From Candidatus Tayloriibacteriota bacterium (GTDB taxonomy: Bacteria; Patescibacteriota; Minisyncoccia; Phycocordibacterales; CAIRYW01), in assembly GCA_029288615.1 (NCBI GenBank), contig JARIGV010000032.1, positions 1-54,154 on the forward strand: a stretch of DNA of 54,154 nucleotides. Reading direction: 5' to 3'. The notes under the pieces were generated by a model. That model saw only the letters and a list, made by a program, of their open reading frames with translations, was not told the origin of the DNA and made no database searches. The position numbers were made by a program, and so were the translations under genes. The number at the start of each line of letters is the position of its first letter. The first letter of the stretch is position 1. Of the stretch, positions 12,922-39,169 are shown piece after piece.

Positions 12922-13617
12922 ATGGCTAAAAATAAAGCTCAAACACCGATTGTCATCTCCGTTGGCGGTTCACTCATTGTGCCTGAAAAAATTGATACTA
13001 ATTTTGTTCGTTCATTTAAAAAACTTATTGATGGTGAAGTAAAGAAAGGAAAAAGATTTATCATTATTTGCGGTGGGGGAAAGACAGCAAGACATTATCA
13101 AGAGGCAGGTAGAGAGATCACAGAGCTTAAGGCGGCAGATATCGATTGGCTCGGTATCCATTCGACCAGACTTAATGCACAGCTCATACGAACAATTTTC
13201 CTAAACAAAGTAGAAGAAAGAATCGTTCATGATCCGCATGAAAAAGTATCTTTCACAAAACCAATTCTTATTGCAGCTGGCTGGAAACCAGGATGGTCTA
13301 CAGACTACGATGCAGTACTCCTCGCTAAAAGATTTAAAGCAAATAAGGTAGTAAATCTTTCAAATATCACTCATGTATATGATAAAGATCCTCGGCATAA
13401 TCCTGATGCAAAACATTTCAAGACAATTTCTTGGAAAGAATATCGAAAAATAATTCCTAAAAAATGGATCCCAGGACTTTCAAGCCCATTCGATCCGATC
13501 GCTTCAAAAGAAGCTGAGAAATCTGGTATTGAGGTTGCTATTATAAATGGTGAAAATCTCTCTGAGCTTGATAATTTCATACAAGAAAAACCTTTTGAAG
13601 GTACACTTATTTCATAG
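12922..13617 (+). CDS. pyrH: UMP kinase-like amino-acid-kinase family protein
   Basis: Expected to phosphorylate UMP to UDP in pyrimidine nucleotide synthesis. The 231 residues show the amino-acid-kinase fold: ISVGGSLIVP near 11-20 (phosphate loop with Gly-Gly-Ser), FIIICGGGKTARHYQEAG near 47-64, and the nucleotide part VVNLSNITHVYDKDPR near 142-157 with the Asp-Lys-Asp-Pro signature. Sequence style is nearer to archaeal UMP kinases than to the E. coli form. Adjacent to ribonucleotide reductase, which would use the products further on. Other members of the fold (carbamate or glutamate kinase) fit less well because of length. Confidence 0.8.
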   Translation: MAKNKAQTPIVISVGGSLIVPEKIDTNFVRSFKKLIDGEVKKGKRFIIICGGGKTARHYQEAGREITELKAADIDWLGIHSTRLNAQLIRTIFLNKVEERIVHDPHEKVSFTKPILIAAGWKPGWSTDYDAVLLAKRFKANKVVNLSNITHVYDKDPRHNPDAKHFKTISWKEYRKIIPKKWIPGLSSPFDPIASKEAEKSGIEVAIINGENLSELDNFIQEKPFEGTLIS

Positions 13618-13620
13618 ATA

Positions 13621-13941
13621 ATGGAACAGTTTAAAGAACTTGATCCGCCAACAGAAAACGATTATCTAAATGAACTCAAGAAATCTGAGTTTGCAGAAAC
13701 GAGCAAGCATGGTATTCACACTTTAAGAAACCTCCAAAGCGCACTCCATTCACATATGGTAGTCGCTGAAAACAAAGGATGGACTGAAGAATCAATTCAC
13801 GAATATAAATTGGCGAGACAGACGCTCCGACTTTTTGGCAATGGAAAAATAAAAAAGGAAGGGGAATTTGGTGGGTTTGTATGGGTCAAAGATGGACTTC
13901 CGTATGATAAAGATATTCTCCTAAGTCCTGACGAACGATAA
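13621..13941 (+). CDS. Hypothetical protein, 106 aa
   Basis: Starts four bases after the kinase stop and is probably co-transcribed. Helical, charged N-terminal half with His-rich ALHSHMVVAENKGW near 41-54, and a C-terminal FGGFVWVKDGLPYDKDILL. No signal peptide, no known domain. Real by spacing and codon use; function unknown. Confidence 0.6.
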   Translation: MEQFKELDPPTENDYLNELKKSEFAETSKHGIHTLRNLQSALHSHMVVAENKGWTEESIHEYKLARQTLRLFGNGKIKKEGEFGGFVWVKDGLPYDKDILLSPDER

Positions 13942-29438: not shown

Positions 29439-29464
29439 GCCGCACAATATGCGGCAATTTTTTT
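29439..29464 (+). terminator. Terminator abutting the mltG copy 2 promoter
   Basis: GCCGCA-CAATA-TGCGGC followed by AATTTTTTT. The -10 box of the next gene begins three bases later, so the terminator sits where the -35 region would be. Confidence 0.75.
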
Positions 29465-29472
29465 GTTATAAT
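29464..29472 (+). promoter_or_regulatory. Extended -10 promoter of mltG copy 2
   Basis: TGTTATAAT, a consensus TATAAT (29467-29472) with TGn; ATG at 29479 after six bases, hence leaderless. Confidence 0.65.
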
Positions 29473-29478
29473 AAATAC

Positions 29479-30609
29479 ATGTTTTTAAATACTCGCGGAA
29501 AAATTGTGGCTATTTTTATTTCTGTGATTCTTATTGCACTTGGATATTTTCTCTACATCCATTTTTCTACTCCAGCACAGCCATCACTTGGATCGATGAC
29601 AGAAACACCAGCCCAAACTGCATCTTCAACATCTTCGACAACTACCGAGCCAGTAAAAAGTGCGGCGCCTGTCACGCAACCATCGCTTCCAGTTGTAAAA
29701 AGTCCGGCAACTACTACCACGCCGCTTCCAGCAGGAACAGATCAATTCACGATTGAGCTTGATGCGACTACATCTGACGCAATCGCTGCAAATCTTCAGA
29801 CTGGCCAATATATTCAAAGTGCAGATACATTTATAAATGCAGCAAAGGGAAAAAATTTTACTGCAGGTGCATACAAAATTTCTAAAGACATGAATGTGTC
29901 ACAGCTCGTGACAGTGCTTTCTGGTAAACCATACATGGTATGGGTCCTTATTCCTGAAGGACTTCGCAAAGAAGAAATAGCAGACCTTCTTAAGAAAAAA
30001 TTAAACTGGAGCACATCTGAGCGTTCTGCATTTCTCGCAGCGACAACTGCAAAATCTGATTACACAGAGGGTGTTTATTTTCCCGATACATATCTTATTC
30101 CAGTTGATGAAACTCCAGCAGATGTCACTAATCGCCTTATCGCAAAGTTTAATGAAAAATTCGCTCCATTTCTGCCGCAATTTAATGCGCAAAATATAAA
30201 ATGGACGACAGGACTCACTCTCGCATCAATCGTGCAGCGTGAAGCAGCAAATGATGCCGACACAGCACTCATCGCTGGCATCCTCTGGAACAGACTTGAG
30301 CAGGGTATGGCACTTGATGTTGATGCAACACTCCAATATGCACGCGGAGATGTAGGAAATGGCTATTGGGCGCCTATTACAACAGCCGAGAAGAAGATAG
30401 ATTCACCATACAATACATATATAAATAAAGGTCTGCCTCCGCATCCGATCTCAAACCCAGGTATTCCTGCGATTGCTGCCGTGCTCAACCCAGCTTCAAC
30501 AACATGTCTTTATTATCTTCATGATAAAAATCATGTAACACACTGCGCCGACACATACGAAGAGCACCAGGCGAATATACAGAAATATTTGATAGATACA
30601 GACAATTAG
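29479..30609 (+). CDS. mltG: MltG/YceG-like endolytic transglycosylase (copy 2)
   Basis: 376 residues from the ATG at 29479, chosen for its -10 box and because it gives a clean signal anchor (KIVAIFISVILIALGYFLYI near 8-27). A Ser/Thr/Pro-rich stretch (about 32-90) spans the wall, then a LysM-like first lobe and the YceG catalytic lobe: ASIVQREAANDADTALIAGI with the catalytic Glu, LWNRLEQGMALDVDATLQY, SPYNTYINKGLPPHPISNPG. Longer linker than copy 1. Confidence 0.9.
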   Translation: MFLNTRGKIVAIFISVILIALGYFLYIHFSTPAQPSLGSMTETPAQTASSTSSTTTEPVKSAAPVTQPSLPVVKSPATTTTPLPAGTDQFTIELDATTSDAIAANLQTGQYIQSADTFINAAKGKNFTAGAYKISKDMNVSQLVTVLSGKPYMVWVLIPEGLRKEEIADLLKKKLNWSTSERSAFLAATTAKSDYTEGVYFPDTYLIPVDETPADVTNRLIAKFNEKFAPFLPQFNAQNIKWTTGLTLASIVQREAANDADTALIAGILWNRLEQGMALDVDATLQYARGDVGNGYWAPITTAEKKIDSPYNTYINKGLPPHPISNPGIPAIAAVLNPASTTCLYYLHDKNHVTHCADTYEEHQANIQKYLIDTDN

Positions 30610-30654: not shown

Positions 30655-31590
30655 ATGGAAACAACATCTGCACCAAAAAATTTTTTCCTTCAGCTTGGCA
30701 TTATCGCCACACTCTACATTTCAACAATAAGCTTTCTCTCTTTTATTTTTGATCTCATCAATGCAGCGTTTCCACAAAACAATCCTTACTCATACTATCC
30801 AGAGGATCTCTATTCTGGCGGTATGCGTCTCGCGATCTCATCTCTTATTGTAATCTTTCCGCTTTTCATCTGGCTTTCAAGAATCTATCGAAAAAACTCT
30901 ATTTCAATGTCAGGGGAGAATAAAGTTCGCAAATGGCTTCTTTTCCTCACACTTTTCCTCACTGGAGCTGCAGTAGCAACAGATCTTATCGTCCTCATTA
31001 ATACATTTCTCAACGGTGAAGACATCACAGCATCATTTATTCTTAAAGTTCTCGCAGTATTCGTAGTCTGCAGCGCAATCTTCGTATTTTATCTTAAAGA
31101 TATTTCGGGATATTGGAACGCAAACCAGAAGAAAGCAACAATCTTTGGCTATGTTGTATCAGCCATTGTCGCTCTCTCTATTATTGGAGGATTTTTCTAC
31201 ATTGGATCACCTACGACTGTACGAAATCAGAGTCAAGATGCGACACGTCAGAGTGATCTTTCGACTATTCAGTGGCAAATTGTTGATTTCTATCAGCAGA
31301 AAGGCAGACTTCCGGGCACACTTGATGAAGTAAAAGATCCAATTTCGGGAAATACAATTCCAGTTGATCCAAACACAGGTGCAGCGTATGAGTATCAGAA
31401 GACAGGAGCACTCACATTCTCACTCTGCGCTACATTTGCAACAGATTCATCATCAAAATTCTCGTCACCGATAGTTCCACAAGGATCTCTCAATGAAAAT
31501 TGGAACCATTCTGCCGGACACACATGCTTCGCACGAACAATAGATCCAGAAAGATATCCGGTATATAGCAAAGGCATTCAAAATCAATAA
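30655..31590 (+). CDS. Membrane protein with DUF5671-like helices and a pilin-like C-terminal domain
   Basis: 311 residues. Four membrane helices cover residues 10-160. The outside C-terminal part resembles the globular domain of type II pseudopilins: RQSDLSTIQWQIVDFYQQKG (helix end), LPGTLDEVKDPISGN, VDPNTGAAYEYQKTG. Two Cys (near 260 and 293) might form a disulphide. This arrangement is known to me from Parcubacteria-type genomes but without a function. It follows mltG copy 2 closely and may act in the cell envelope. Confidence 0.6.
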   Translation: METTSAPKNFFLQLGIIATLYISTISFLSFIFDLINAAFPQNNPYSYYPEDLYSGGMRLAISSLIVIFPLFIWLSRIYRKNSISMSGENKVRKWLLFLTLFLTGAAVATDLIVLINTFLNGEDITASFILKVLAVFVVCSAIFVFYLKDISGYWNANQKKATIFGYVVSAIVALSIIGGFFYIGSPTTVRNQSQDATRQSDLSTIQWQIVDFYQQKGRLPGTLDEVKDPISGNTIPVDPNTGAAYEYQKTGALTFSLCATFATDSSSKFSSPIVPQGSLNENWNHSAGHTCFARTIDPERYPVYSKGIQNQ

Positions 31591-31594
31591 AATC

Positions 31595-32203
31595 ATGCGA
31601 AAGATTCTTATTGGTACGCGAAATGATGCAAAATTTCGCATGGTAAAAGAATGCATGCCAGAAATTCCAGACGTTGAATTTGTAAATCTAAATGATATAT
31701 CTGCAATTGATGATTCAACTCTCGTAGAAGGCCCAGACTTTGAAGAAAATGCGAAATTAAAGTCAGAATTTTATTTCAAAGCTTCAGGAATTCCAACGAT
31801 TGCCACAGATAATATTTTTTGGGTAGAAAAATGGCCGAAAGACAATGGATTTATCGTGCACATGCGAAAAGAAGCCAATCCAGAAAGCCCGAGAGCAACA
31901 GATGAGGAAGTTGTAGAATTTTTCAAGAAATTTCTAGACAGTGTCGGTGGGGAATCGAAAGCAAATTTCTTTTATGCCATCGCGTATACCGACGAAAAAG
32001 GTACAAATACATGGGTATCAAAACAACACGACTATATTGTGCAGACCGTGCAATCAAAAAATTTCTGGCCAGGGTATCCGATGGAATCTCTCCTTATCGA
32101 TGCTGAAACAGGGGAGTATAAAGGTGATCAAAAAAATGAAAGAAGATATTCAAAACTTATTGAATGTCTTGCAACTGATGTGAAAAAGAGAATTTTGGAA
32201 TAA
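31595..32203 (+). CDS. HAM1/RdgB-like nucleoside-triphosphate pyrophosphatase
   Basis: 202 residues with the HAM1 fold: ILIGTRNDAKFRMVKE at 4-19 (in place of the usual A-T-G-N-x-G-K), LVEGPDFEENAKLKSEFY near 43-60 with the Glu-Glu-Asn metal site, and ATDNIFWVEKWP in place of the usual ADDSGLEVDAL. Removes ITP or XTP from the nucleotide pool. The differences suggest an unusual subgroup; substrate could be different. Starts four bases after the previous gene. Confidence 0.75.
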   Translation: MRKILIGTRNDAKFRMVKECMPEIPDVEFVNLNDISAIDDSTLVEGPDFEENAKLKSEFYFKASGIPTIATDNIFWVEKWPKDNGFIVHMRKEANPESPRATDEEVVEFFKKFLDSVGGESKANFFYAIAYTDEKGTNTWVSKQHDYIVQTVQSKNFWPGYPMESLLIDAETGEYKGDQKNERRYSKLIECLATDVKKRILE

Positions 32204-32232: not shown

Positions 32233-35200
32233 ATGAAAAAATACGATCCTAAAAAAATAGAAGGAAGGTGGCAAAAGAAATGGCAATCGGAGAAAACATT
32301 TGTCACAAAGGACTCTGGCGCAAAGGAAAAATACATACTCGTAGAATTTCCTTATCCCTCTGGTGCCGGCCTTCACATGGGTCATATGAGACCTTACATG
32401 GCTGGAGATATCTCAGCAAAATACTGGCGCCTCAAAGGCTACAACACGATGTATCCAATTGGTTGGGATGCTTTTGGTCTTCCTGCAGAAAACTACGCGA
32501 TCAAAAACAAAGTTCACCCAGAAGTTTCAACAAAAAAGAATATTGCAAACGCAAAAAGGCAGCTTGCATCATGGGGAACGGGTTTTGATTGGTCGAGAGA
32601 AATAAACACAACAGATCCTGACTACTATAAATGGACACAAAAAATTTTCTTGGAGTTTCTCAAAGCAGGTCTTGCATATGAAGCGACAGGACTCATCAAT
32701 TGGTGCCCGAAAGATAAAACAGGTCTTGCTAATGAAGAAGTGATTGATGGTAAATGTGAACGCTGTGGTAGCGAAGTAGAGAAGAAAGAGCTTCGCCAAT
32801 GGTATCTCAAGATCACAGACTATGCAGAAAAGCTTTTGGAAGGACTCAAAGATCTTCCAGAGTGGCCTGAAGCAGTAAAACTCCAACAGGCAAATTGGAT
32901 CGGTAAAAGTGAGGGCGCTGAAATTGATTTTTATCTTAATTTCAAAAAAGATCCAAAAGTAAATGAGAACCGCGGACCAGACGGAAAGGCCGCGCATATT
33001 CCTGTTTTCACAACACGTCCTGATACGATCTTTGGTGCTACGTATCTCGTTCTTTCACCAGAACATCTCTGGGTCACACTCGCAACTGACGATAAGCATG
33101 ACGTTCTCGAAAATAAAGAGGAGGTAAAGAAATATATCGAAAATGTAAAAGGTAAATCTGACATTGAACGCACAGCTCTTGGAAAAGAGAAAACAGGTGT
33201 AGAGCTTAAAGGTGTTAAGGCTATTAATCCTGCAACAGGTGAAGAAATTCCGATGTTTATTGCAGATTATGTCCTTGCAGGCTACGGCACTGGAGCGATC
33301 ATGGCTGTTCCTGCACACGACGAACGAGATTATGATTTCGCAAAGAAATTTGATTTACCAATAAGACAAGTTGTAGCGGAACATTTTGTCGATATAAATA
33401 CACCCCCTAGAGAAGGAAAAAGGCATGCTCCTCGTGTTGTAGTTCAAGGAATTGTAAGAAATACAAAAAACAACACTGTCCTTCAGATTGTATGGAAAAA
33501 ATTTCCATGGAAAACATTTGTCATTGGCGGCGCTGAGGATGGAGAAAGTCTTGAGGACGCTGTAAAAAGAGAAGTCTTTGAGGAGACTGGGTACAAAAAC
33601 TTTTCTTCAATTAGAAAAATTGGATCTGAAATGCGCTCAGAGTGGTATGCGGAGCATAAAGATGAAAATCGCTACGCCCACATGCATGTCTATGAACTTA
33701 TTCTAGAAAACGATGAGCACGAGGAAATAAGTGGCAAAGAAAAGGAGAAACATGAAATTGCATGGGTGCCTTTTGATTCAATTTCAACTTCTTTTAAGCC
33801 AGTAAGCGAAATGCCAGCAATTCTCGCCGGACTTAACAAAAAAGAAGCGGGGGTATTTGCTGAAAGTGGAATTCTTATTAATTCAGGGAAATTTTCTGAA
33901 AAAAATTCTGAGGAAGTAAAAAAAGACATTGTTGAATTCGTCGGTGGAAAGATTGTCACAAAATACAAACTCCGCGACTGGGTGTTCTCACGCCAGCGCT
34001 ATTGGGGTGAACCAATTCCAGTCATTCACTGTGATAAATGTGGAATCGTTCCTGTTCCCGAGAAAGATCTTCCTGTTAAACTTCCAAAAGTAAAAAACTA
34101 CGAACCGACAGGAACAGGTGAGAGTCCACTTGCAGCAATTGAGAAGTGGGTCAATGTAAAATGTCCGTCATGTGAACAAAAAAAGAAAGAAACAAAATAT
34201 TTAGTCTTTGACTTTGATGGTGTACTTGGTGATACATGGGAGGCACATCTTCATGCTCGAGTAAACATGGGGGATAGTCCTGACCTAAAAGATGCGGTTG
34301 CGAAAGCAGAGAAATACTTTGAAACTAAGCCTTGGCATTCACGTGGAGAAAAATATGACGAAAGTATTCACATAGACTGGTCTACACGATTTGCAAAAGA
34401 ACTTGCAAAACTTGAGTATGATCTTTTCACTGATTTTCTTAAGGAAATTGGCAAAATCAAAAATGCAAAAGTAGCCATCGTGAGCGCGGGCTCAAAAATC
34501 TATTCCGAAGCGCCAATTAAAAAAGCAAAATTCAAGCATACTCATTTTCTAGGTATGGAAGATCATCATTCAAAAGAGGAAAAACTTGAAATGATTGCAG
34601 AAGCATGGAAGGTAGATGTAACGGAGCTTTACTATTTCACCGACACGAAAGCAGATGTGTACGAGCTGGAGAATCTTCTTAATCGTAAAAAGATTATTGG
34701 CTGTGCTTGGGGTTACGCCGGAGAAGAAAAATTAAAACAAGTTCTTCCGGAAAACCAGATCCTCAAAAAATTCAAGGATATTCACAAAGTTTTTGAGCCA
34801 GGAAAAGCAAAACGCGAAACAAACACAATGCCACAATGGGCAGGCAGCTCTTGGTATTGGCTTCGTTACACTGACCCAAAAAACAAAAAGGAATTTGCAG
34901 ACCAGAAAAAGCAAAAATATTGGACACCTGTAGATCTCTATTTTGGTGGGATGGAGCACACAACACTTCATCTTCTCTATTCTCGTTTTTGGAATCTTTT
35001 CCTTCACGACAGAGGACTTGTTACCGCAAAAGAGCCTTACATGAAGCGAGTACCACACGGCATCATTCTGGGTCCGGATGGCGAGAAAATGTCAAAGAGT
35101 CGAGGCAATGTTGTAAACCCAGATGACATCATTGCTCTTTACGGAGCAGATACTGTGCGCGTGTACATGGCATTCTTAGGCCCCCACGGTGCGCAAGTTG

Positions 35201-35748
35201 CATGGAATGATAAAGGTATTATCGGCGCACGAAGATTTCTCGAGCGAGTGTTTGCAATGAAAGAATTTATTTCAAAAAATGAAGACAAAAATGTTACAAC
35301 ACTACTTCATAAGACCATAAAGAAAGTAGGTGAGGACGTTGAAGCATTTTCGTTCAACACCGCCATTTCATCAATGATGATTTTTGTGAATACTGTTTTT
35401 GAATCAAAAAAAATCACAAAGAAATCTTTCGAAATATTTCTCATTATTCTTTCTGCCTTTGCACCTCATCTTTCGGAAGAAATTTGGAAGGAACTTGGAC
35501 ATAAAAAGACAATCTTTACTGAAAAATGGCCCACTTTTGATCCAAAACTTCTCGTTTCTGACACCGTAAAAATGGTTGTGCAGATAAATGGCAAGGTCCG
35601 AGCGGAAATTGAGGTAGGAGCTTCGGCCGAAGAGAAGGAAATTGTAGAAAAGGCCCTCTCGGAGCCTAAAATTGGGGAGTATTTGGAGGGTAAGGAAATC
35701 CGAAAAACCATTGTGGTTAAGGGAAAAATCGTCAATTTTGTGGTCTAA
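32233..35748 (+). CDS. leuS: Leucyl-tRNA synthetase with inserted Nudix and HAD hydrolase domains
   Basis: Charges tRNA-Leu. 1171 residues against about 810-870 normally. Class I motifs: HMGH at about 48-51 and K952-M-S-K-S956. Editing (CP1) domain: TTRPDTIFGATYLVLSPEH near 257-275 and VPAHDERDYDF near 357-367. About 155 residues after VAEH (near 383-535) form a complete Nudix box: G-x5-E-x7-RE-V-x-EE-x-G-Y near 432-454, followed again by normal CP1 sequence (SGILINSGKF). A second insert (about 650-850) splits the zinc-ribbon region between CPSC and KRETNTMPQ. It is HAD-like: DFDGVLGDT at 660-668, VSAGS near 754, KEEK near 783, and D804-x3-D808. All catalytic residues of both inserts appear intact, so decay is unlikely. 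Confidence 0.95.
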   Translation: MKKYDPKKIEGRWQKKWQSEKTFVTKDSGAKEKYILVEFPYPSGAGLHMGHMRPYMAGDISAKYWRLKGYNTMYPIGWDAFGLPAENYAIKNKVHPEVSTKKNIANAKRQLASWGTGFDWSREINTTDPDYYKWTQKIFLEFLKAGLAYEATGLINWCPKDKTGLANEEVIDGKCERCGSEVEKKELRQWYLKITDYAEKLLEGLKDLPEWPEAVKLQQANWIGKSEGAEIDFYLNFKKDPKVNENRGPDGKAAHIPVFTTRPDTIFGATYLVLSPEHLWVTLATDDKHDVLENKEEVKKYIENVKGKSDIERTALGKEKTGVELKGVKAINPATGEEIPMFIADYVLAGYGTGAIMAVPAHDERDYDFAKKFDLPIRQVVAEHFVDINTPPREGKRHAPRVVVQGIVRNTKNNTVLQIVWKKFPWKTFVIGGAEDGESLEDAVKREVFEETGYKNFSSIRKIGSEMRSEWYAEHKDENRYAHMHVYELILENDEHEEISGKEKEKHEIAWVPFDSISTSFKPVSEMPAILAGLNKKEAGVFAESGILINSGKFSEKNSEEVKKDIVEFVGGKIVTKYKLRDWVFSRQRYWGEPIPVIHCDKCGIVPVPEKDLPVKLPKVKNYEPTGTGESPLAAIEKWVNVKCPSCEQKKKETKYLVFDFDGVLGDTWEAHLHARVNMGDSPDLKDAVAKAEKYFETKPWHSRGEKYDESIHIDWSTRFAKELAKLEYDLFTDFLKEIGKIKNAKVAIVSAGSKIYSEAPIKKAKFKHTHFLGMEDHHSKEEKLEMIAEAWKVDVTELYYFTDTKADVYELENLLNRKKIIGCAWGYAGEEKLKQVLPENQILKKFKDIHKVFEPGKAKRETNTMPQWAGSSWYWLRYTDPKNKKEFADQKKQKYWTPVDLYFGGMEHTTLHLLYSRFWNLFLHDRGLVTAKEPYMKRVPHGIILGPDGEKMSKSRGNVVNPDDIIALYGADTVRVYMAFLGPHGAQVAWNDKGIIGARRFLERVFAMKEFISKNEDKNVTTLLHKTIKKVGEDVEAFSFNTAISSMMIFVNTVFESKKITKKSFEIFLIILSAFAPHLSEEIWKELGHKKTIFTEKWPTFDPKLLVSDTVKMVVQINGKVRAEIEVGASAEEKEIVEKALSEPKIGEYLEGKEIRKTIVVKGKIVNFVV
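33430..33840 (+). other. Nudix hydrolase domain inside leuS
   Basis: Sub-feature of the leuS reading frame, about residues 400-535. The Nudix box lies at 33526-33600. Family members cleave nucleoside diphosphates linked to other groups, with Mg2+. Placed in the editing domain, it could act on aminoacyl-adenylate-like or dinucleotide molecules, or may just be a passenger; the role is unknown. Confidence 0.88.
34180..34800 (+). other. HAD-like phosphatase domain inside leuS
   Basis: Sub-feature of leuS, about residues 650-855. Motif I D660-F-D662-G-V, motif II serine in IVSAGS, motif III lysine in SKEEKLE and motif IV D804/D808 complete the HAD catalytic set. The insert replaces the zinc-knuckle core, since only one CxxC pair before it (CPSC) and one earlier (CDKCG) are seen. 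Confidence 0.82.
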
Positions 35749-35824: not shown

Positions 35825-36856
35825 ATGTCAGTGCTCACATTCAAACCAAAAATCACCGTCAAAAAGCTCCTCGCAGCCCTTCCTACACGTTCTCGTGAGG
35901 TTATTGTTGCTCGCTATGGACTTGGAAAGGATGCTTCAAAGATGACTCTCGAAGCTATTGGCGATAAATACGGTATCACTCGTGAACGAGTACGACAGAT
36001 CGAGAATTCTGGCATCATAAACATCCGAAAATCAAAATCTTTTAAGGAAGAAGTAAAAGTTTTTGAGGAACTTAAGAATATTTTTAAAACTCTTGGATCA
36101 ATTATTTCAGAAGAAGATTTTCTCAATTATATTTCTCCAAAAGATAAATCTCTTCAAAACGATGTTCACTTCCTTCTCGTTGTTGGAGATGCATTCAAGA
36201 AACAGAAAGAAAATGATGAGTTCAAACACCGATGGCACATCGATGATTCTCACGCAAAGAAAGTAGAGGAAGCGCTTCGAAAACTTTACAAAGGACTTTC
36301 AAATGATGAACTCCTTCCTGAATCAGAAATCATCACAACTTTCCTCAAGCATCTCGAGGAAGTAAACGAGGAATACAAGAACGAAGAAGTTCTCAAACGA
36401 TGGCTCTCTCTTTCAAAACAGATTTCACGAAATCCTCTTGGTGAATGGGGAGTTGCTCATTCAAAGAATGTTTCTGTGAAGGGAATTCGAGACTACGCGT
36501 ACCTCGCTATAAGAAAGCACGGATCACCGATCCACTTCCGCGAAGTTGCTAAATCAATCCAGACACTTTTCAACAAAAAAGCTCATGTTGCTACAACACA
36601 CAACGAACTTATTAAAGACAAGAGATTTGTTCTCGTTGGACGCGGTCTCTACGCTCTCGCTGAATGGGGATATATCAATGGTGTTGTAAAAGATGTGATC
36701 CAGAAGGTTCTTGAGAAAAATGGCCCCCTTACGAAAGAAGAGATCATCGACAAAGTTCTCAAAGAACGATACGTCAAAGAAAACACCATCCTCGTCAATC
36801 TTCAGAACGCAAAGAACTTCAAGAAAGACAAACAAGGACGTTACTCACTCGTATAA
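35825..36856 (+). CDS. Sigma70 region-4-like HTH plus HARE-HTH regulator
   Basis: 343 residues. The N-terminal 75 residues carry a sigma region 4 fold: LPTRSREVIVARYGL near 19-33, LEAIGDKYGITRERVRQIEN near 42-61 (recognition helix). Region 2 is missing, so it is not a full sigma factor. The C-terminal part (about 225-343) holds HARE-HTH-type winged helices: IRDYAYLAIRKHGSPIHFREVAKSI and RFVLVGRGLYALAEWGY, with a second copy after it; this domain occurs in RNA polymerase delta subunits and in chromatin proteins. Probably binds RNA polymerase or the -35 element. Own promoter, perfect terminator. Confidence 0.8.
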   Translation: MSVLTFKPKITVKKLLAALPTRSREVIVARYGLGKDASKMTLEAIGDKYGITRERVRQIENSGIINIRKSKSFKEEVKVFEELKNIFKTLGSIISEEDFLNYISPKDKSLQNDVHFLLVVGDAFKKQKENDEFKHRWHIDDSHAKKVEEALRKLYKGLSNDELLPESEIITTFLKHLEEVNEEYKNEEVLKRWLSLSKQISRNPLGEWGVAHSKNVSVKGIRDYAYLAIRKHGSPIHFREVAKSIQTLFNKKAHVATTHNELIKDKRFVLVGRGLYALAEWGYINGVVKDVIQKVLEKNGPLTKEEIIDKVLKERYVKENTILVNLQNAKNFKKDKQGRYSLV

Positions 36857-38176: not shown

Positions 38177-39169
38177 ATGGATTCATTACCGTCGGATTTC
38201 GAATCGGCACCCAAGAAAAAAATAACAACAAAAGCGCTCGCTCTCAGCGCAGCTCTTTTTATTTGCGTACTTCTTTTCATCTATTACTTTATGATTGGAA
38301 GCTTTGCGAAGTTTCCCGACGGTAAAATTATCTATGTAAAAAAAGGAGCCTCGCTTCGTGAAGTAGCTACAGAATTTAAAGTGGGCGGCATTATTTCATC
38401 ACGAAACCTTCTTATGATGACGATCATTACACTTGGTGGCGAAAATAAAGTCGTTGCTGGGCCATATTTCTTTTCAGGTGGAGAAGGCGTACTTCCACTC
38501 GCGCTTCGACTCATGTCAGGAAATTTTGAAATCAAACCACTTAAAATTACATTCCCAGAAGGATTTACTGTGAAAGCGATAGGAGATCGATTGAAGGAAA
38601 GAATTCCCGTCTTCGATGAATCTAATTTTCTTGCGCTCGCTAAACCAAAAGAGGGATATCTTTTTCCTGAAACATATTTCTTCTTACCTGATGTCACCGC
38701 AACAGACACACTCGAAGCATTTTCAAATGTTTTTGATCAGAAAATTAGCAGCCTCAAAAATCAGATCCTTTCTTCTGGACATTCACTGAACGAGATCATC
38801 ACAATGGCGTCCATTCTTGAGGAAGAAGTACGTGGTAGCGAGGATAAAAAGATTGTCGCAGGAATTCTCTGGAAAAGAATAAAAATGAGAATGCCGCTCC
38901 AGGTAGATTCCACTCTCGCGTACGAAATTGGAAAAACATCGGGACAACTTACTCTGACCGATCTTCAAACGGATTCTCCGTACAATACATACACGAGAAA
39001 AGGTTTGCCTCCAACACCGATTTCAAACCCAGGACTCGACTCGATCACGGCAGCCGTTGAGCCAATGACAACACCGTATCTTTATTTCCTCACAGATAGC
39101 CAAGGAGTAGTGCATTATGCAAAAACTTTTGAAGAGCATAAGGCGAATAAAGCGAGGTATTTGAGATAA
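38177..39169 (+). CDS. mltG: MltG/YceG-like endolytic transglycosylase (copy 3)
   Basis: 330 residues, membrane anchor TKALALSAALFICVLLFIYY near 18-37, then LysM-like lobe (KGASLREVATEFKVGGIISS near 57-76) and YceG lobe: ASILEEEVRGSEDKKIVAGI with the catalytic Glu in an EEE cluster, LWKRIKMRMPLQVDSTLAY, SPYNTYTRKGLPPTPISNPG. The nearest of the three to standard MltG in length. Co-transcribed with the gene before it. Confidence 0.92.
   Translation: MDSLPSDFESAPKKKITTKALALSAALFICVLLFIYYFMIGSFAKFPDGKIIYVKKGASLREVATEFKVGGIISSRNLLMMTIITLGGENKVVAGPYFFSGGEGVLPLALRLMSGNFEIKPLKITFPEGFTVKAIGDRLKERIPVFDESNFLALAKPKEGYLFPETYFFLPDVTATDTLEAFSNVFDQKISSLKNQILSSGHSLNEIITMASILEEEVRGSEDKKIVAGILWKRIKMRMPLQVDSTLAYEIGKTSGQLTLTDLQTDSPYNTYTRKGLPPTPISNPGLDSITAAVEPMTTPYLYFLTDSQGVVHYAKTFEEHKANKARYLR

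Follow-up and report, generated by a model that had tools for sequence, protein, structure and literature searches.

Why should an aminoacyl-tRNA synthetase, a member of one of the most conserved groups of enzymes, carry intact hydrolases of other families within its own polypeptide chain? The question is raised by the leucyl-tRNA synthetase (LeuRS) gene at 32233..35748 on the forward strand of contig JARIGV010000032.1 (assembly GCA_029288615.1), from a Candidatus Tayloriibacteriota bacterium of the Patescibacteriota; the window, by which we mean the whole stretch of DNA analysed, spans 54,154 nucleotides. A first-pass annotation, made from the sequence without database searches, had placed a Nudix domain within the CP1 editing domain of this LeuRS and a HAD phosphatase domain in its zinc-ribbon region, and had suspected a lineage-specific system. 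Both domains prove to be real and motif-intact, and they belong to a lineage-specific pattern seen in the LeuRS of relatives, where a phylum with tiny genomes builds varied intact hydrolases into several synthetases.

Two enzyme domains inserted in a leucyl-tRNA synthetase

The plus-strand frame at 32233-35748 runs for 1171 codons without a break and bears the LeuRS signatures that had been claimed for it. Its translation, also recognized by Pfam, scores 968.5 bits against the bacterial LeuRS model TIGR00396 (leuS_bact; cut-off 548.4), which makes it a bacterial LeuRS, and it is the sole LeuRS detected in its own genome (788 kb, 98.8% complete). The TTRPDTIFG, AVPAHDERD and KMSKS motifs are intact, and both CP1 editing motifs are present, the T-rich TTRPDT as TTRPDTIFG and HDxRD as AVPAHDERDYDFA; judged by these motifs, the host is functional. 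When the protein is aligned to Thermus thermophilus LeuRS (1h3n), the core resumes around the inserts, the Nudix domain falling between 1h3n residues 363 and 376, after the CP1 editing motif, and the HAD domain between residues 487 and 489, in the zinc-ribbon region as proposed. The AlphaFold2 model of the whole protein has a predicted local distance difference test score (pLDDT) of 82.5. As judged from motifs and models, this LeuRS carries two self-contained, motif-intact phosphohydrolase domains in surface loops of the CP1 and zinc-ribbon modules.

The Nudix insert (residues ~385-541; 33385..33855, plus strand), delimited by Pfam, alignment and model, lies between HDERDYDFA of the CP1 editing motif and GILINSG. 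Residues 401-517 match Pfam NUDIX (PF00293) with an E-value of 5.9e-14 and 52.6 bits (cut-off 21.1). The Nudix box, GGAEDGESLEDAVKREVFEETG, occupies residues 432-453 (33526..33591, plus strand) and includes the catalytic residues E447, E450 and E451. When 67 embedded Nudix copies are aligned, these metal-binding glutamates of the REXXEE motif are kept in 67, 65 and 67 sequences, respectively, and the Nudix-box arginine in 61. Within the whole-protein model, most of the domain has block-mean pLDDT values of about 88-94.

The HAD insert (residues ~648-856; 34174..34800, plus strand), defined by motifs, model and Foldseek, follows CPSC (residues 644-647), the last zinc knuckle, and precedes AKRETNTM. 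Its core, as used for alignment and modelling (34195..34797, plus strand), contains all four catalytic motifs: DFDGV (I), VS (II), SK (III) and TDTKAD (IV). Across 12 aligned sequences D6, D8, S126, K127, T149, D150 and D154 of this segment are invariant, and the motif residues as a whole are invariant or conservatively kept. The profile search recovered NUDIX well above its cut-off and HAD_2 (PF13419) below it, with 19.4 bits (E 0.0012, residues 658-809) against a cut-off of 23.8, which HAD inserts of relatives do pass (L239, 2.4e-9; L212, 1.7e-8; L240). The domain is poorly modelled within the whole protein, where just two alignment rows include it; modelled alone from the 12 sequences, it reached a pLDDT of 94.7, and Foldseek matched this model to HAD-IA phosphatases with probability 1.00.

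Misassembly, a chimera or decayed passenger domains could in principle simulate such a protein. G001, an independent genome, nevertheless has the same architecture with both inserts, the Nudix insert is found in dozens of genomes, and the frames are open. This recurrence refutes an assembly artefact, and decayed passengers were rejected on motif conservation, the catalytic residues being far from freely variable in relatives; an artefact is hardly credible.

A different proposal is that the Nudix and HAD domains degrade diadenosine tetraphosphate (Ap4A), the guanosine alarmones (p)ppGpp or adenylates, and would thereby couple LeuRS to stress signalling. Ap4A, which synthetases produce, can be cleaved by Nudix enzymes, and Ndx1 (1vc8, E 0.004) is among the solved structures matched by the insert. 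These matches are, however, only four, weak and mixed (3fcm, 1vc8 and nudI among them, E 6e-4 to 9e-3), no substrate-class signature was identified in the Nudix domain, and the sister LeuRS L007 is without HAD. A sensor of this kind is very unlikely. Assigning a substrate by similarity was abandoned for Nudix because its solved relatives are too weak, and for HAD because a sequence search of solved chains gave no match at E <= 0.1.

Recurrence in related synthetases

The survey covered Patescibacteria genomes (197 of the same order and 380 of the phylum), together with two archaeal LeuRS that proved to carry an insert. Within the family, the G001 protein (63-66% identical overall) carries both inserts; that of G002 has Nudix alone. 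A LeuRS match was present in 185 of the 197 genomes of the order, and the Nudix region was covered in roughly 60 among the matches listed; in the phylum sample, Nudix relatives reaching E <= 1e-6 were found in 62 of 380 genomes. About 65 Nudix places were listed, which by frame length divide into roughly 50 in long frames and 13 that are short and free-standing. The long frames retrieved were those of 16 LeuRS, one isoleucyl-tRNA synthetase (IleRS) and one valyl-tRNA synthetase (ValRS).

The positions and nature of the inserts were charted in 116 LeuRS, a detailed set weighted to long proteins, and Pfam confirms most of the inserted domains in the eight proteins scanned. Besides Nudix and HAD, the inserts include Ham1-like domains and RBBP9-like serine hydrolases (Ser_hydrolase), the latter located either ahead of TTRPDT or within the zinc region. 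Combinations vary widely. Second Nudix copies occur in L087, L092 and L216; L166 combines Ham1, serine hydrolase and Nudix; and L212, a LeuRS of 1795 residues, holds five inserts (HAD, Ham1, Nudix, a second Ham1-like domain, recognized by its 50% identity to a gene of the window described below, and a nucleotidyltransferase-like domain). Content differs even within one genus, where HAD takes the Nudix site in L239, which also has a serine hydrolase, and L215 carries Nudix plus HAD. The Nudix–HAD pair is real but one of many combinations, and therefore need not form a single pathway. Around the inserts, the LeuRS core and editing motifs are mostly intact.

L095 has an in-frame DUF559-type nuclease before TTRADTLFG (PF04480, E 9.7e-35), which, from its sequence, may be a mobile element; its flanks, PAPPKGEGEF and LPFGEGLGGV, suggest inverted repeats at the peptide level. 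Inserts without a recognized family were seen before TTRPDTIFG in L220 and between HDDRDYAFA and the GILINSG equivalent in L102. The archaeal LeuRS L061 and L062, one of them titled Pacearchaeota, have a serine hydrolase inserted at the site that is used in bacterial LeuRS, which suggests transfer between domains of life.

Other synthetases are hosts as well. The IleRS of the same genome (L157; G000:C12, 13673-17305, minus strand) contains a histidine phosphatase (PF00300, E 2.7e-34). So do all 29 further IleRS taken from the best matches in the order, a sample biased to carriers because it was drawn from top-scoring matches. A free RBBP9-like serine hydrolase gene (13101-13673) overlaps the 3′ end of this IleRS gene, and comparable free genes stand at the retrieved IleRS loci of G048 and G099. 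Further hosts are an IleRS with serine hydrolase, Nudix and histidine phosphatase (L213), a ValRS with Nudix (L223), a ValRS-like frame that lacks the N-terminal ValRS part and carries HAD, serine hydrolase and Nudix (L240), and a threonyl-tRNA synthetase (ThrRS) with Nudix (L241, genome G261; TIGR00418, 500 bits). At the last locus an aspartyl-tRNA synthetase (AspRS) gene, a free HAD gene and the Nudix-bearing ThrRS gene stand together, with PheRS-alpha-like and serine-hydrolase-like genes nearby. One IleRS match (G156:C11:79998-82685) is embedded in a single open frame 25,277 residues long, possibly masked sequence. By motif and profile, then, a small set of hydrolases (Nudix, HAD, Ham1/inosine triphosphatase-like, RBBP9-like serine hydrolase and histidine phosphatase) has been repeatedly inserted at several sites, the hosts in Patescibacteria being LeuRS, IleRS, ValRS and at least one ThrRS.

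Linkage of free-standing copies to synthetases

The gene 29 bp upstream of the LeuRS (31595..32203, plus strand) encodes a free-standing Ham1/inosine triphosphatase-like protein (PF01725, E 2.3e-7) of the same subfamily as the inserts within relatives' LeuRS. Its close relatives in the order number eight, every one inside a LeuRS (those of G159 and G184 among them), and the phylum sample adds one more, inside L212. The subfamily is thus linked to LeuRS in 10 of 10 cases, nine within the protein and one, the window gene, upstream of it.

The HAD type behaves similarly. At E <= 1e-20 nine copies were found: five in LeuRS (G000, which is the genome of the window, G001, G251, G443 and G199), one in the ValRS frame of G204, and three free-standing, of which the G103 copy lies 10 bp 3′ of the LeuRS gene, the G261 copy stands between the genes for AspRS and the Nudix-bearing ThrRS, and the G275 copy is unlinked. 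Eight of the nine are therefore linked to a synthetase. Synthetase-linked HADs form a supported clade (100/99) relative to seven free-standing HADs, in a tree that left out the later-found copies of G443, G204, G261 and G275. The small Ham1 and HAD trees give no resolution as to whether free genes became inserts or the reverse. As for Nudix, a free Nudix-like gene lies 7 bp 5′ of the LeuRS gene in L224.

Apparent exchange of inserts between hosts

Pairwise identity in the Nudix insert shows no correlation with that in the LeuRS core (Mantel rho 0.05, a value reached in 110 of 500 permutations), although one half of the Nudix domain does correlate with the other (rho 0.68-0.73); LeuRS catalytic segments intercorrelate mostly at 0.3-0.7. 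P0001 and L007, for example, share 0.75 identity in the core and 0.36 in Nudix. On a FastTree phylogeny of 135 LeuRS, well-supported branches force at least 24 changes in Nudix presence or absence. A single ancient Nudix insertion, vertically inherited, was rejected on these grounds, since insert identity ignores the host even though the Nudix halves agree. By these comparisons the Nudix insert and its host gene vary independently of each other, with free copies sometimes adjoining a synthetase; because Nudix identity is unrelated to that of the host LeuRS, the inserts appear to be exchanged. Caution is needed in reading this comparison: identity in the CP1 editing domain (residues 257-382) is likewise uncorrelated with the catalytic core in about 80 LeuRS, hinting that this domain may also be exchanged, and the C-terminal segment is decoupled in the same test. 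LeuRS of this group is therefore more generally mosaic.

Such mobility would also be expected if synthetases were simply permissive scaffolds. Compact enzymes with close termini would land by recombination in tolerant loops of essential, steadily expressed proteins, and would be kept as self-folding, self-working units that gain constant expression, their functions being unrelated to the synthetase. Variation of Nudix regardless of host, the many gains or losses on the LeuRS tree, the occupation of one site by different enzymes (HAD in L239, Nudix plus HAD in L215) and the DUF559 nuclease all agree with this explanation, which accounts for the swapping equally well as one in which the inserts serve the synthetase. 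It fits less readily with the recurrence of a few families across at least four synthetases; nor were such inserts seen in other large proteins of the relatives examined, of which no systematic search was made. What mainly weakens it is that the free-standing neighbours are synthetase-linked too, the Ham1-like and HAD subfamilies keeping to synthetase loci even as free genes. Passive accommodation is a possible explanation, though less probable than the one that follows.

Possible role of the embedded hydrolases

The reading that we favour, at a probability of about one half, is that the inserts are active, self-contained and exchangeable hydrolase cassettes that clear unwanted compounds in cis, close to the synthetase. 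Nudix, Ham1 and HAD families include classic house-cleaning enzymes, and editing by class I synthetases is known to yield homocysteine thiolactone. The Nudix, Ham1, HAD and histidine phosphatase domains might, for example, remove nucleotide by-products or damaged nucleotides, and the serine hydrolase might remove aminoacyl esters or thiolactones; fusion to, or co-expression with, a synthetase would place them where by-products arise. Motifs that remain intact even in deeply diverged copies, confident predicted folds, recurrence in the phylum and in four synthetases, and the near-exclusive linkage of the Ham1-like and HAD subfamilies all support this reading. As regards the serine hydrolase, the human alpha/beta hydrolase BPHL (valacyclovir hydrolase), reported to be an efficient homocysteine thiolactonase (PMC4198189), offers a possible link, the likeness being one of alpha/beta hydrolases in general.

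Several observations tell against clearing in cis. The inserted families are common small enzymes, which may have been chosen because they are plentiful and fold readily rather than for what they do. Nudix is undetectable in about two thirds of the order's LeuRS, and its function must therefore be dispensable or supplied elsewhere. The DUF559 nuclease of L095, the nucleotidyltransferase-like domain of L212 and the unassigned inserts of L102 and L220 misfit a clearing role, and one shared substrate fails to account for all inserted families. A comparison of LeuRS relatives gave a mixed picture with no pattern relating inserts to loss of editing: because editing motifs are degenerate in some insert-bearing hosts and not in others, no simple link between the two emerged.

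Aminoacyl-nucleotide antibiotics and hydrolases that inactivate them exist, which makes it plausible that the cargo is defensive. By analogy with resistance to Trojan-horse antibiotics, the embedded enzymes would destroy nucleotide-like or aminoacyl-nucleotide toxins directed at the synthetase, and such a pressure would explain both the fast swapping and the enzyme variety; the exchange of motif-intact enzymes in varied combinations across LeuRS, IleRS and ValRS is consistent with it. The histidine phosphatase of IleRS, however, is present in all sampled matches of the order and is not fast-swapped, nor did any toxin, biosynthetic cluster or phage link come to light, although none was sought; we consider self-protection unlikely.

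A broader and more speculative view, which we advance tentatively, is that Patescibacteria synthetases act as docking sites at which hydrolases from a common pool are exchanged and serve the synthetase, the lineage changing which clearing enzyme is built into LeuRS, IleRS, ValRS or ThrRS, a modular system for which we found no described counterpart. Two questions follow: which compound beside the synthetase needs removal, and how whole domains swap in frame within essential genes. On the practical side, large synthetase fusions of this kind are easily mis-annotated.

The genes around the LeuRS include a DUF5671 membrane gene (30655..31590, plus strand) and a Sigma-70 region 4/HARE-HTH gene (35825..36856, plus strand), which in relatives are conserved upstream and downstream neighbours of LeuRS, respectively. 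Translations that by eye resemble MltG/YceG-type endolytic transglycosylases flank the region at 29449-30609 and 38177-39169 on the plus strand.

Comparison with known systems

No published description of such synthetase–hydrolase fusions was found in the open-access literature, bioRxiv and most subscription journals lying outside the scope of that search. Each component nevertheless has a familiar counterpart. The host agrees with TIGR00396 and with 1h3n from end to end, in the catalytic core, the CP1 editing motifs, the zinc-ribbon region, KMSKS and the anticodon-binding domain, and differs from the latter by its two added enzyme domains. Like the PF00293 hydrolases, the Nudix insert has a complete Nudix box and a domain predicted with confidence; it is set apart from them by its position inside a synthetase and by its weak similarity to solved Nudix enzymes. 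In motifs, alpha-helical cap and fold the HAD insert corresponds to subfamily IA (phosphoglycolate phosphatase-like; 3mc1, 2hi0), yet it matches no solved chain in sequence and clusters with other synthetase-linked HADs. The upstream Ham1-like gene and the related LeuRS inserts belong with the RdgB/Ham1 purine nucleoside triphosphate pyrophosphatases at the level of the Pfam family (PF01725); because the upstream gene scores far below the Ham1/RdgB equivalog cut-offs (33.8 bits against 234 and 26.7 bits against 145), the RdgB/Ham1 substrate should not be transferred to it. The closest precedent for the arrangement itself is NCBIfam NF040702 (ileS_w_GNAT), likewise a class I synthetase with an additional enzyme domain, for which NCBI keeps an exception model of its own. 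The present protein, being a LeuRS with no Pfam match to a GNAT (N-acetyltransferase) domain, falls outside that model. The fusion of IleRS with an N-acetyltransferase differs, moreover, in its domain and in being a single fusion type, and implies no exchange among sites or synthetases.

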